Of a DNA stretch of 64,000 nt, positions 11,939 to 26,815 are shown in pieces. The stretch is from the NCBI RefSeq assembly GCF_024385465.1, contig NZ_JANFLS010000001.1, positions 310,001 through 374,000 on the forward strand. Reading direction: 5' to 3'. How positions within the stretch are numbered: the first letter of the stretch is position 1; every line of letters begins with the position of its first letter. The translations under genes and the position numbers were made by a program. Below the pieces are notes generated by a model that was given only the letters and a program-made list of their open reading frames with translations, made no database searches and was not told where the DNA came from. The stretch is from Arthrobacter sp. zg-Y844. Lineage in GTDB: Bacteria; Actinomycetota; Actinomycetes; Actinomycetales; Micrococcaceae.

Positions 11939-12382
11939 TTAGGCGGCGGTGCCGGCTGCCCGGTCCCGGCCGAGCACGCGTGCGCAGACCAGCACAGCTG
12001 CGACGGTGGCCAAAGCCTGCCCGAAGAGCCACACCAGTCCGGCGGTCACTACCGACGGCTGCTCCGGAGCGGAGGAACCGGTCACGATCAGCGGTACCTC
12101 ACTGACGAGGTCCAGGGAAAAGAGCCCCAGCACCAGGTAGGTGATCACGCCGGTGACGGCACTCAGCAGTGCACTGCGCTGCCAGAGGCCGACCAGCAAG
12201 GCGACGGCACCGCTGAACACTACGGCCAGCAACGCACCGACGGGCAGTCCGTCGTCGCCCGCATACACCACGTGGCCGTGCAGGGACGTGCCCAGCAGCG
12301 CGGCCAGGATCCCGCCGGCAACGGCCGCAAGAGGCCCCCGCCAGCGCGGGGACCTCTTGCCGGTCTCAGCCGTGGTGGAAAT
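11939..12382 (-). CDS. small membrane protein with apparent ATT start
   Basis: About 147 aa with four hydrophobic segments, no recognised domain, and a short charged N-terminus STTAETGKRSPRW before TM1. It follows typA with 2 nt between. No ATG, GTG or TTG lies in frame between the typA stop and TM1; the first usable GTG is inside or after TM1. The codon in the expected position is ATT (12382-12380). Starts upstream in this frame would lie inside typA. Translation from ATT, or by coupling to typA termination, is inferred. Function unknown. Confidence 0.62.
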   Translation of the reverse strand: MSTTAETGKRSPRWRGPLAAVAGGILAALLGTSLHGHVVYAGDDGLPVGALLAVVFSGAVALLVGLWQRSALLSAVTGVITYLVLGLFSLDLVSEVPLIVTGSSAPEQPSVVTAGLVWLFGQALATVAAVLVCARVLGRDRAAGTAA

Positions 12383-12384
12383 GA

Positions 12385-14307
<1,923 letters not shown>

Positions 14308-23929: not shown

Positions 23930-24496
23930 ATGAGAGCTGACGCTGCGCGGCGAAGAGAAGCGATCGTCGCCCATGCGAGGCACCTTTTTGCCGAGCGGGG
24001 CGGCGATGTTGCGCTGGAGACGGTAGCCGCGGCGAGCGGAGTCGGCATTGCTACCCTGTACCGCAATTTCCCCTCCCGCGATGAACTGGTCCGAGCCGTA
24101 GTGCAGGACACTGTCGAGGGCATCTTGGAAGCGGCAAACGAGGCCCGCGCCGGGCTGGAAACGGACGCTGCGGCGTCATGGGAGCGGCTCTTATCGCACC
24201 TGATGTCCATGGAGTTGGGTGCGCTGACCGATGGCCTCGCGCTGCAGCCCGGTGCCGTCCGCGATTTGAACGCCACTCCCCTGGCGCAGGTGCAACAGCC
24301 TGCACTTCACGCCCTTGACGAGGTGCTGTCTGCACTGAAAACCCAGGGGGTGGTACGCCAGGAGCTCACCGCGCTGGACGTGATCGTTGCGGTGGCGACG
24401 ATCACCCGTCCGCAGATCTCGCCCATCCGTGAAGCGGCGCCGGAGGTGCAGGCCCAGCTGGCGCATGCGTACCTGCTGTGGACCCGCACCTCGTAG
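23930..24496 (+). CDS. TetR/AcrR-family transcriptional regulator
   Basis: 188 aa. The N-terminal helix-turn-helix domain runs over about residues 6-52 (REAIVAHARHLFAERG, LETVAAASGVGIATLYRNFP, the classical TetR recognition helix ending), followed by a helical ligand domain. The ATG at 23930 has a purine-rich GAAGGGGG upstream. It most likely binds the palindrome at 23856-23874 and represses both itself and the divergent membrane-protein gene. Confidence 0.9.
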   Translation: MRADAARRREAIVAHARHLFAERGGDVALETVAAASGVGIATLYRNFPSRDELVRAVVQDTVEGILEAANEARAGLETDAAASWERLLSHLMSMELGALTDGLALQPGAVRDLNATPLAQVQQPALHALDEVLSALKTQGVVRQELTALDVIVAVATITRPQISPIREAAPEVQAQLAHAYLLWTRTS

Positions 24497-24511: not shown

Positions 24512-24551
24512 AAAAAGCGCCTCTCGGGTCGAAATCCGGGAAGCGCTTTTT
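24512..24551. terminator. bidirectional terminator: tetR 3' end and ancestral ychF 3' end
   Basis: AAAAAGCGC (24512-24520) pairs with GCGCTTTTT (24543-24551) with an inner GGG/CCC pair. Reading the minus strand, it follows the displaced ychF tail by 10 nt and ends in TTTTTATTTTT, as expected for the original ychF terminator. Confidence 0.88.
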
Positions 24552-24561
24552 CGGAGCACGA

Positions 24562-24588
24562 CTAGACGTTGAAGCGGAACTCCACCAC
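24562..24588 (-). pseudogene. ychF: displaced original 3' tail of ychF
   Basis: On the minus strand this reads V-V-E-F-R-F-N-V-stop, the exact C-terminus of the YchF encoded at 25730-26815, in host-like GC-rich codons (TTC CGC TTC AAC GTC TAG). Nothing upstream of VV matches ychF, so only the last eight codons remain here. Confidence 0.75.
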
Positions 24589-24808
24589 GTTCCGTAGCCA
24601 ATCAACCTCTTACATTCGCAGTCAGATTACCTTCGAGGTAGGGGAAGCCGAGCGCTACGTCCCGGGTGATCTGAGGAATGTCTCCGGCGGCGGCAGCATG
24701 GGCCGCTGACGGAACCCCGCTCCCACGTCGGAGGTCCTGCCGCCGGCGCGCGGCACCGGACCCTGCCAGCGGCGCCGCCGTCCTTTGCCACCTGGGCGCT
24801 TCTTGGTA
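24589..24808. other. 220-bp non-coding stretch inside the ychF insert
   Basis: No gene is supported. The left third is AT-richer and the rest is GC-rich with many GCC/GGC runs. It may hold decayed coding sequence but nothing was recognised. Together with 24497-24588 it forms the 312-bp gap between tetR and the next gene. Confidence 0.4.
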
Positions 24809-25420
24809 TCAGTGACTGGTTTGGAGTGCCTCAGTGTAGAGTTTCGGGTCGTTCCTGGTTTCAGCTGAGATGACAAGATGACTGCCGTTGAGACGCTGCG
24901 CAAAGTACCCCAAATAGGGCAGTACGATGATCGTCGTGAGCCCGTCTTGCCATGCCTTAACCAGCACCGGAAGGCTATCTTGTTCGGACCGGGAAGGAAA
25001 GTTCGGCGTTGTCTGTTTATCCCACGTATTGAAGGCCACCAGATCTACCCCATCCTCGCCGTATTCGACGGGCCAGAACGGTGGCACAATCGGGTGGAGT
25101 TCCTGTCCAGGGCTCGAGAGTTTTTGCATCTCTTCCTGTGAGATCGGTTCGTTTTGAACTGTGCTTACGTTGAACCAGTCCCAGCTGCGGTCCCATTGCT
25201 GCTTCCAGCGTTCATCCCATACCTCACGGCTTGCTGACGCCGGGATCTTCGATGCACCCGTCGCAGGCACAGGGCTGAGTTCCGGAATTTCGATGTCCTG
25301 GGCGATCATCCATGCCTGTCGGATAAAGAGAAGCATCTTCAGGTTCTGCGCGTGGTCATCAATCCGGATGGTCATTTCCTTTGGCCAAACAGCCCGCCGT
25401 CTAAGCCCTATTCCCCACAT
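24809..25420 (-). CDS. hypothetical protein, cargo of the ychF insert
   Basis: 203 aa with no recognised family. The ATG at 25420 has a strong AAGGAG 6 nt upstream. It is soluble and Trp-rich (REVWDERWKQQWDRSWDWFN near 67-86), with no signal peptide or TM. Base composition is visibly lower in GC than in neighbouring genes and it uses codons such as AGA and ATA that are rare around it, suggesting transfer. It is the only intact gene inside the insert. A structural or defence role cannot be judged from sequence alone. Confidence 0.68.
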   Translation of the reverse strand: MWGIGLRRRAVWPKEMTIRIDDHAQNLKMLLFIRQAWMIAQDIEIPELSPVPATGASKIPASASREVWDERWKQQWDRSWDWFNVSTVQNEPISQEEMQKLSSPGQELHPIVPPFWPVEYGEDGVDLVAFNTWDKQTTPNFPSRSEQDSLPVLVKAWQDGLTTIIVLPYLGYFAQRLNGSHLVISAETRNDPKLYTEALQTSH

Positions 25421-25729
25421 AGTGACTCCTTGATTTGTCGGCCGGACGGAGAACAGTGGTTGGTGCCAAGCATCGCATTCGACCTGCCTTCAGTAAATGG
25501 TTCGCTCAAAGCTTGAGGCCCCGATCGGAAATGTCCGCTGGGATCGGGGCCTCCGGAGGCGAACTAAGTCGTGACCCGTGCTGGCTATTCTTCTTCAAAG
25601 GCCCGTGGGCGGTACCGCGCGAGATCCACGAGGGCTGGTGACGGTACAACCCTCGATCCATAAACAAGAAATGCCGCCCTCAGACGCTTTCGCTGAGGGC
25701 GGCATTTCGATTGATTCAGGCGAAATAAT
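25421..25729. other. 309-bp non-coding right part of the ychF insert
   Basis: It contains the leader of the 203-aa gene, a 12-bp stem-loop with arms GAGGCCCCGATC at 25515-25526 and 25542-25553, and the ychF terminator at 25669-25707. Short open frames here have no SD or recognisable product. Confidence 0.5.
25669..25707 (-). terminator. current terminator of ychF
   Basis: A 15-bp perfect stem AAATGCCGCCCTCAG/CTGAGGGCGGCATTT closes with a T-run on both strands and lies 23 nt after the ychF stop. It is unlike the displaced terminator at 24512-24551, so it came with the insert. Confidence 0.9.
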
Positions 25730-26815
25730 CTAAACGTTGAATCTAAACTCCACCACATCGCCGTCGGCCATAACGTAGTCCTTGCCTTCGATGCGGACCT
25801 TGCCGCGGGATTTGGCCTCGGCCATGGAGCCGGCGTCGACCAGGTCGTCGAAGGAGACAACTTCGGCCTTGATGAAGCCACGCTGGAAGTCGGAGTGGAT
25901 GACGCCGGCAGCCTGGGGCGCGGTGTCGCCCTTGCGGATGGTCCAGGCGCGGGTTTCCTTGGGGCCGGCAGTCAGGTAGGTCTGCAGGCCGAGGGTGTGG
26001 AAGCCGACGCGTGCCAGCTGGTCCAGGCCGGATTCTTCCTGGCCGTTCATTTCCAGCATTTCGCGGGCTTCTTCTTCGTCCAGCTCCACCAGGTCGGCTT
26101 CGAGCTTGGCGTCGAGGAAGATCGCGTCTGCCGGTGCCACCAGTTCACGCAGTTCGGCCTGGCGGTCCGGGTTGCCCAGCACGGCGTCGTCCACGTTAAA
26201 CACGTAGATGAACGGCTTGGCGGTGAGCAGGCTCAGCTCGCGCAGGTGCTCCATGTCCAGCTTGTCGCTGGCCACGGAAGAGAAGATCGTGTCGCCGCGT
26301 TCCAGGACGGTGCGGGCGGCCTCCATGGCGGCCAGCTGCGCGGCGTCGCGCTTCTTGATCTTGACTTCCTTCTCCACCCGCGGGATCGCCTTTTCCAGCG
26401 TCTGCAGGTCAGCCAGGATCAGCTCGGTGTTGATGGTTTCCATGTCCGACCGCGGGTCCACCTTGCCGTCCACGTGGATGACGTCGGGGTCATCGAACAC
26501 GCGGATAACCTGGGCAATGGCTTCGGCTTCACGGATGTTGGCGAGGAACTGGTTGCCCAGCCCTTCGCCCTCGGAAGCGCCCTTGACGATCCCGGCGATG
26601 TCCACGAAGGACACCGTTGCCGGAAGGATGCGCGCCGAACCGTGGATTTCGGCCAGCTTGGCCAGCCGCGGATCGGGAAGGGACACGACGCCGACGTTCG
26701 GTTCGATGGTGGCGAACGGATAGTTCGCCGCCAGCACGTTGTTGCGGGTCAGCGCATTGAACAGGGTTGATTTGCCGACGTTGGGCAGGCCGACGATGCC
26801 AATAGTAAGAGCCAC
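25730..26815 (-). CDS. ychF: redox-regulated ATPase YchF (Obg family)
   Basis: 361-aa ribosome-associated P-loop NTPase that prefers ATP. GLPNVGKS is at 9-16, and FNVDD replaces the canonical NKxD of GTPases, as known for YchF. A coiled-coil insert and C-terminal TGS domain follow. The GTG start at 26815 sits 21 nt after ispH, with TATCAT just upstream. The final six codons are atypically AT-rich (TTT AGA ... GTT), because the 3' end was replaced by an insert; the protein sequence is unchanged. Confidence 0.94.
   Translation of the reverse strand: MALTIGIVGLPNVGKSTLFNALTRNNVLAANYPFATIEPNVGVVSLPDPRLAKLAEIHGSARILPATVSFVDIAGIVKGASEGEGLGNQFLANIREAEAIAQVIRVFDDPDVIHVDGKVDPRSDMETINTELILADLQTLEKAIPRVEKEVKIKKRDAAQLAAMEAARTVLERGDTIFSSVASDKLDMEHLRELSLLTAKPFIYVFNVDDAVLGNPDRQAELRELVAPADAIFLDAKLEADLVELDEEEAREMLEMNGQEESGLDQLARVGFHTLGLQTYLTAGPKETRAWTIRKGDTAPQAAGVIHSDFQRGFIKAEVVSFDDLVDAGSMAEAKSRGKVRIEGKDYVMADGDVVEFRFNV

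Follow-up and report, generated by a model that had tools for sequence, protein, structure and literature searches.

The closest described counterparts of the system analysed here are the SCC/SCCmec and ECC elements, which are moved by CcrA, CcrB and CcrC. The accounts of these elements that deal with integration describe large serine recombinases, insertion at the end of rlmH, repeats containing the last codons of the target, and composites with extra attachment (att) sites (PMC6222049, PMC3956370, PMC10061031). The locus considered here lies in a 64,000-nucleotide stretch of the genome of Arthrobacter sp. zg-Y844 (positions 310,001 to 374,000 of contig NZ_JANFLS010000001.1, called the window in what follows), where ychF is followed by a 1,168-bp insert and then by a second copy of its own 3′ end. 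Two further kinds of element invite comparison. Cis-mobilizable elements (CIMEs) are flanked by att sites, lack a recombinase and accumulate beside an autonomous element. Integrons gather short cassettes, often of a single gene, into arrays of the same orientation behind a fixed site; these are mobilised in trans, with a tyrosine integrase and folded attC sites.

Comparison with related genomes indicates that the insert is very probably a non-autonomous mobile cassette, and that it occupies the attachment site used by large serine integrases (LSIs) of a family that appears to be specific for the 3′ end of ychF. Elements carrying such an LSI enter ychF at GTGGTGGA; the gene then ends in the left arm of the element, P′, in place of its last codons, and the right arm, P, lies directly against the displaced tail. 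Cassettes that lack an LSI sit in tandem behind ychF, each running from a ychF tail with its terminator (B′) to a P arm. Because each cassette begins with the tail and terminator and ends in P, ychF is restored in synonymous codons. The cassettes are most likely moved by an integrase carried on a separate element; movement would be in trans, because the genome of the window has no serine recombinase, a scan for PF00239 giving no match.

The insert behind ychF

The features of the locus are as follows.

25730..26815, minus strand: ychF (361 aa), the host gene, with the attachment site at its 3′ end; open reading frame (ORF) matching PF06071 (132.9 bits) and MMR_HSR1 (78.3 bits)
25730..25756, minus strand: proximal tail VVEFRFNV* in AT-rich synonymous codons, host arm fused to the cassette's own B′ arm, from alignment with 7 relatives
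25668..25708, minus strand: terminator-like hairpin arriving with the cassette, its 16-bp arms 100% complementary
24585..25752, minus strand: the 1,168-bp cassette, with the crossover set at the symmetric centre of GTGGTGGA, an inferred position
24809..25420, minus strand: ORF for a 203-aa protein; a start at 25375 would give 188 aa
24589..24612, minus strand: P arm of 24 bp, GTTCCGTAGCCAATCAACCTCTTA, the right-hand half-site attributed to the ychF serine integrase
24562..24588, minus strand: displaced ychF tail in host-like codons, now fused to the P arm, an attR-type junction
24512..24551, minus strand: original ychF terminator-like hairpin, in a flank common to genomes G010, G020 and G021
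23930..24496, plus strand: TetR-family gene (PF00440), the chromosomal neighbour beyond the insertion site, also present in G010, G020, G021 and G025

The initial annotation had proposed that an element inserted site-specifically at the 3′ end of ychF and restored the reading frame there. The original observation is confirmed, and its interpretation is supported by genome comparison. The two 27-bp tails are where it had placed them, at 24562-24588 and 25730-25756 on the minus strand; both read VVEFRFNV*, they are 85% identical, and they lie 1,168 bp apart from start to start. The 11-bp direct repeat that it reported at both edges, AACTCCACCAC, is located at 24578-24588 and 25746-25756, and the terminator that it placed behind the displaced tail corresponds to the hairpin at 24512-24551; the other tail has a hairpin of its own at 25668-25708. 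The conserved P arm at 24589-24612, also in the interior, is an addition to that annotation. It had also described a lower-GC gene in the interior, and the region of the 203-aa ORF has a GC content of 54-56%, against mostly 60-70% in the surroundings. A degenerate tail pattern occurs at exactly two sites in the 3.37-Mb genome, both at this locus, while the reversed control pattern occurs at none; thus the repeat is not a chance event. Elsewhere in the same genome (G000), two closely spaced tyrosine integrases lie at 30709-35952 of contig C5, perhaps in another mobile element.

Cassette arrays in Arthrobacter and beyond

A ychF tail is present in all 29 Arthrobacter genomes, and 15 of these have two to five exact copies, on one strand and all within 14 kb. 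The initial annotation had allowed that its reading would fall if all relatives shared the same arrangement, or if no strain had an uninterrupted ychF. Neither is the case. The 203-aa cassette is found in only eight of the 29 genomes, representing seven species (G020 is of the window's species), and in G006, G012, G023 and G024 there is one tail only, in host-like codons, and the cassette arm is absent. The arm is absent also from G013 and G026, whose one tail is in AT-rich codons. A tail spacing of 1,165-1,168 bp recurs among the genomes of the genus. Even within a species the site differs, G020 having an extra segment of 12 kb that separates the 203-aa cassette from the displaced tail.

Together, the genus and further members of the family provide 75 inter-tail segments, by construction with tails of no more than three mismatches at both ends, that range from 524 to 14,842 bp with a median of 1,724 bp. 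Thirty-eight of them are unrelated to any other, and the remainder fall into families found at varying positions in the arrays, one of them in three genera. The left ends of the cassettes consist of a ychF tail and terminator, and the AT-rich tail TTTAGRTTTAAYGT is found again in many of them. In a survey of 109 flanks of tails with at most two mismatches, the kind of hairpin seen at 25668..25708 follows 36 tails in 22 genomes and another type follows nine tails in nine genomes, single-tail genomes included. Several cassettes in G172 and G035 (loci L032, L033 and L037) have as their first gene the same one, of a 118-aa type, which overlaps the stop codon of ychF; this looks like capture of DNA from downstream of a native ychF.

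The junction is not confined to the genus. With up to two mismatches allowed, the junction pattern was matched in 59 of 295 genomes of the family (14 of 32 genera), with no match to the reversed pattern, and in 65 of 347 genomes across the order (17 of 104 genera), where the reversed control again gave zero. At no more than one mismatch the order scan retains 47 of the 347; the other 18 of the 65 have two-mismatch matches only, and two of the 65 (G349 and G467, each at two mismatches) look like the native end of ychF. The highest number of matches in a single genome is seven (G172, over two contigs, and G587).

In 24 of 28 genome pairs the 203-aa cassette is more similar than the ychF next to it, and this points to transfer between species. 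Among G009, G010, G018 and G020 the cassettes are 99.2-99.8% identical and the ychF genes 96.5-97.8%, and the comparison of G025 with these four gives 98.1-98.2% for the cassette and 92.6-93.4% for ychF.

The conserved right-hand arm and the restored ychF ending

Cassettes are closed by a conserved arm, GTTCCGTAGCCGAATAACCT. The 49 P arms, which come from the 43 spans listed below and of which at least one (in G015) looks like a chance match, have the consensus GTTCCGTAGCCGAatAACCTcT, or GTTCCGTAGCCGAATAACCTCT when read outward from the centre. The arm followed by GTGGT was sought in 43 spans, comprising the 29 genus genomes together with G035, G045, G063, G065, G114, G123, G143, G167, G172, G197, G220, G228, G253 and G286; L039, L042, L043, L045, L046, L048, L049 and L050, with tails away from ychF in the sequence examined, lie outside these spans. 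The search gave 44 sites, all 44 on the ychF strand, and the left arm of the integrase follows none of them. An exact EFRFNV* follows the arm at 36 of the 44 sites, though unattached to ychF, in a count that includes displaced host tails at array ends, which raises the match. In codons 3-9, with the first five tail bases fixed by the search and left uncounted, 114 changes are synonymous and 30 are non-synonymous, where 13% synonymous would be expected under random change. Since EFRFNV* is kept at 36 of 44 sites and synonymous change is in excess, the cassette tails look selected as ychF ends.

Two other explanations may be weighed here. In the first, the ychF end was duplicated in tandem or recurs by chance, with no mobile element involved. 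This might be considered given that the repeat in the window is only 27 bp long, but it is contradicted by the presence of both single-tail and multiply filled sites, by shared cassettes, and by the conservation of P arms across genera, and we regard its probability as negligible. It is also quite unlikely that the insertions are static relics, old and immobile, kept by descent and reshaped by homologous recombination. That account is consistent with the decay of some tails and arms (eight of the 44 arm sites; G014, G017 and G022), with the lack of an LSI in the genome of the window, and with a window cassette that is no more alike than ychF to four others and tails that vary at positions 6 and 15. 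It sits poorly with the 24 of 28 pairs in which cassette identity exceeds that of ychF, and with the tails beside P arms that still encode EFRFNV* at 36 of 44 sites.

A large serine integrase at the ychF end

The initial annotation had predicted that other insertions would be found at the same ychF codons, next to an integrase, and such cases exist in the form of LSIs adjoining ychF. An LSI lies between ychF and a later tail in G002, G011, G172 and G123, and behind ychF in G228. PF07508 is matched somewhere in 24 of 35 tail-bearing genomes searched. The integrases of G063 and G143 differ from those of G002, G011, G123, G172 and G228, and that of G063 was left out of the alignment. A profile of these last five LSIs, scanned over one genome per species, yielded 34 relatives, of which 33 are from Actinomycetota by their record titles; the exception, L103, is 24% identical. 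For 20 of the 34, ychF lies within the 10-kb flanks, and in 12 of these 20 the LSI match starts no more than about 100 bp from the stop codon of ychF. In five more, those of G002, G011, G123, G172 and G228, ychF is on the same contig, and three further relatives (from Gordonia, Nonomuraea and Pseudonocardia) adjoin a ychF tail, which has two mismatches in two of these cases. The 508-aa protein of L060 matches PF00239 (85.9 bits) and PF07508 (49.1 bits), the domain content and size (about 500 aa) of a large serine integrase, and scores 277 bits with PHROG 95. At E up to 1e-20 a phage collection contained 31 records related to the LSI, all below 60% identity, and a plasmid collection one distant relative; an att query matched four plasmid records, by sequence alone, and no carrier of the ychF LSI was found in the two collections.

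Where an LSI adjoins ychF, the C-terminus of YchF becomes VVEFR-HGITSA..KK or a relative of this, and not FNV. Of the 27 loci chosen because they have an LSI or a P′ tail, 25 have a non-native tail, the exceptions being L092 and L102. The arm GTTCCGTCACGGAATAACCT, found where the LSI element entered ychF, is mirrored by the cassette arm GTTCCGTAGCCGAATAACCT. Read outward from GTGGTGGA, the P′ arm of the Arthrobacter-type elements is GTTCCGTCACGGAATAACCTCTG, and the left arms of more distant integrases are more divergent. The P arms (n = 49) and the P′ arms (27 loci) thus appear to form an inverted repeat around GTGGTGGA, and the attP deduced from these junctions, not from a circular form, comprises two inverted arms around a short crossover. 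It is chiefly because P mirrors P′ that we take the cassettes to carry half of an LSI site and assign them to the LSI family. The crossover probably falls inside GTGGTGGAG, and the symmetry of the arms would place it between GTGG and TGGA (GTGG/TGGA); the tail variants of the 203-aa cassette suggest a crossover between positions 6 and 9. Taken together, the sequence comparisons indicate that the locus in the window is one instance of a larger system, a hotspot at the ychF end that, in several families within one order, harbours elements with a serine integrase as well as non-autonomous cassettes in tandem.

A tyrosine recombinase, either the host XerC/XerD or a lost phage integrase, is very unlikely to have made the insertions. 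Tyrosine recombinases are present in all 29 genus genomes, and five of the 15 multi-tail genomes (G003, G004, G009, G020 and G028) have just two, both conserved, which we take to be XerC/XerD-like; moreover eight of the 29, including G028 and the genome of the window, now have no serine recombinase. Insertion by Xer was raised on account of those array genomes with only two tyrosine recombinases, and was set aside given the LSI link. The P arm matches an arm of the serine-integrase elements at ychF, and by coordinates no PF00589 match falls inside any array in the 29 genomes. Elements that exploit Xer insert at dif; the site used here is coding sequence of ychF.

Several features of the LSI elements and loci may be recorded. 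The elements at L060:2314-8925 and L056:7122-11793 have an HTH_17 protein beside the integrase that is a candidate directionality factor, the LSI of L056, from Arthrobacter hankyongi, lying at 12171-13685, and LSI elements also carry a large protein with a weak match to DNA polymerase and a small resolvase. The element of G172 has genes for a MobA/VirD2-like relaxase and a NikA-like protein, and genes with similar first residues occur in that of G123. In many genera the attachment arm is translated into YchF, with basic C-termini such as HGITSAAQGKK or TGLTSKK replacing FNV (L085-L087, L089, L091, L094, L096, G002, G011, G172 and others). In G220 and L065 the ychF tail reads HGITSAAQGKK in a genome with no PF07508 match, and the element may have lost its integrase. 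L092, from Rothia aeria, was considered as an autonomous element with an AT-rich restoring tail; a search of the whole genome at no more than one mismatch gave this one tail only, which may be the native end, and for that reason the locus was dropped as evidence and kept as an exception.

How the cassettes may move

We suggest that the LSI acts in trans on the cassettes, and that it could ferry them as follows. An LSI element next to ychF would excise by recombination between its left junction and the junction beyond the first cassette, giving a circle that includes the cassette. This circle would integrate at ychF elsewhere. In a second excision, now at the inner junction, the LSI element would depart and the cassette would stay behind, attached to ychF by the B′ arm that it carries itself; the cargo, several items of which are defence-like, would thereby be passed between species. 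This sequence of events is a tentative proposal, to which we give a little under an even chance. Serine integrases join attP with attB, and attL with attR given a helper, as set out in the relevant part of PMC3783163. The inner junctions are of the attR type, since they have a ychF-type arm on the left and an integrase arm on the right, and ferrying is compatible with the known chemistry because only the attP × attB and attL × attR reactions are needed. Ferrying predicts that the LSI element always adjoins ychF, and this holds except at L092, L102 and G143.

Alternatively, in the manner of an integron, a cassette circle in which P is joined to the cassette's own tail arm might be inserted directly by the LSI, the AT-rich tail being a P′-like arm that encodes EFRFNV. 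The short lengths of the cassettes (a median of 1,724 bp for the 75 segments), the occurrence of families singly at varying array positions and in varying genomes, and the sharing of the AT-rich tail TTTAGRTTTAAYGT by many cassettes would all agree with this. We nevertheless consider it rather unlikely: the left arm of the cassettes is unlike P′ (GTTCCGTCACGGAATAACC) and like B′, host-like tails are also found at internal array positions, and a reaction of attR with attB is excluded by the serine integrase rule as stated in that part of PMC3783163.

A number of observations weigh against mobile cassettes moved by the LSI. The evidence is entirely comparative, and movement itself is unobserved. 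The initial annotation had expected strains in which ychF runs straight into the terminator at 24512-24551; in no genome examined was this seen, nor was an exact empty site found for the flank of the window, the genomes with that flank (G010, G020 and G021) all being filled by a cassette. PF07508 lies near ychF in only seven of the 35 tail-bearing genomes (G002, G011, G063, G123, G143, G172 and G228), and six of the 34 LSI relatives have no link with ychF in the sequence examined. Three cases depart from the rule that the LSI adjoins ychF: in L092 the tail is FNV and the LSI 103 bp away, in L102 the tail is FNV with an LSI fragment further down, and in G143 a different LSI, 27.6-29.3% identical, lies behind five further tails. 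The remaining four of the 28 genome pairs are reversed, the cassette of the window being 96.5-96.7% identical to those of G009, G010, G018 and G020 and its ychF 97.0-98.2%. These pairs fit separate acquisition and not recent sharing, and since all four involve the window's own copy, its cassette is a distinct allele. Near-identical cassettes vary at left-tail positions 6 and 15, for which a fixed crossover alone is insufficient. Because the cassettes carry B′ and P and not P′ and P, the site on a cassette circle, once free, would be of the attR type, which serine integrases do not normally join to attB. Lastly, ferrying leaves the first origin of new cassettes unexplained, including how they gained the right arm.

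Cargo of the cassettes

Of twenty cassette proteins compared with Pfam, fourteen gave one match or more at E ≤ 0.01, weak in some cases, and of ten compared with a defence library six matched something; the proteins were picked by hand, large ones first, and the counts are not a rate. Clear defence matches are to PifA (7.8e-76), DrmD (1.7e-119), a TmtA-like sacsin domain (2.4e-49) and GmrSD-type restriction (Orf5, 1.2e-130), with weaker ones for an SMC-like ATPase and one 632-aa protein. The four of the ten with no match in the defence library include a PIN_8 protein and a NACHT protein, both identified by Pfam. Other cargo comprises lipoproteins, a hydrolase adjoining a WXG100-like gene, and unassigned proteins. 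In L005 and L006 (G007 and G008) the cassettes have several tandem copies of a lipoprotein-like gene, which could be toxin/immunity repeats; those of G008 adjoin the gene for a 689-aa hydrolase-domain protein, and the gene beside this hydrolase is, judging by its sequence, presumably WXG100-like.

The 203-aa protein of the window has no match in Pfam, NCBIfam, PHROGs or the PDB, and a profile of five homologues gave none in the PDB up to E = 1. An AlphaFold2 prediction from the single sequence has a mean pLDDT of 33. Homologues are found in 22 of 295 family genomes, some away from ychF, and three of the latter (L111-L113) have no common neighbouring gene. A distant homologue (31.6% identical), annotated as hypothetical, is carried by NZ_CP080439.1 and seven related plasmids of Clavibacter michiganensis, predicted to be conjugative.

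Relation to known systems and significance

How does the ychF system compare with those already described? Like SCC, in the accounts of it and its relatives that cover these features, it has a large serine recombinase, the 3′ end of a conserved gene as its target, tandem elements, and repeats of the last codons of that target. Unlike SCC the insertion is at ychF and not rlmH, and the recombinase is not of the Ccr kind: the LSI of L060 is phage-type, scoring 62 bits with the CcrB model against a cut-off of 900, and the genome of the window has no PF00239 match at all. Compared with ECC, given as 21-78 kb in the source consulted, the cassettes are small (median 1.7 kb) and the hosts belong to the Actinomycetales. 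The ychF system therefore works like SCC and is not a member of it.

As in CIMEs, and in the tandem accretion of integrative and conjugative or integrative and mobilizable elements (ICE/IME), there are att-flanked units without a recombinase, and the LSI element of G172 has relaxase genes; the serine integrase, the protein-coding target and the restoration at codon level set the present system apart. Short cassettes of the same orientation arrayed behind a fixed site recall integrons, in contrast to which these cassettes have the half-site of a serine integrase, leave the end of the host gene restored and have the arms described above as their conserved ends; no PF00589 match lies in the arrays of the 29 genus genomes. 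Among the matches listed from open-access full text, no paper was found that describes ychF as such an attachment site, the search covering neither subscription papers nor preprints. Pneumococcal prophages use a different site near ychF, according to the part of PMC8637289 that concerns it.

On this basis it is possible, if short of probable, that a cassette system extends across the order Actinomycetales, in which a ychF-specific serine-integrase element ferries small cassettes, some of them for defence, and drops them behind ychF, with YchF rebuilt every time. The findings point to the 3′ end of ychF, a widely conserved gene, as a new hotspot for integration; a candidate integrase and a deduced attP go with it, and the bacteria concerned are a group for which integration tools are sought. 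They also provide a natural experiment on YchF, since strains of many genera that bear the integrase have the C-terminus of this protein rewritten by the attachment arm. The cassettes suggest a route by which single anti-phage genes may spread between species as very small units, and if ferrying is true, the system would be a serine-integrase counterpart of the integrons.

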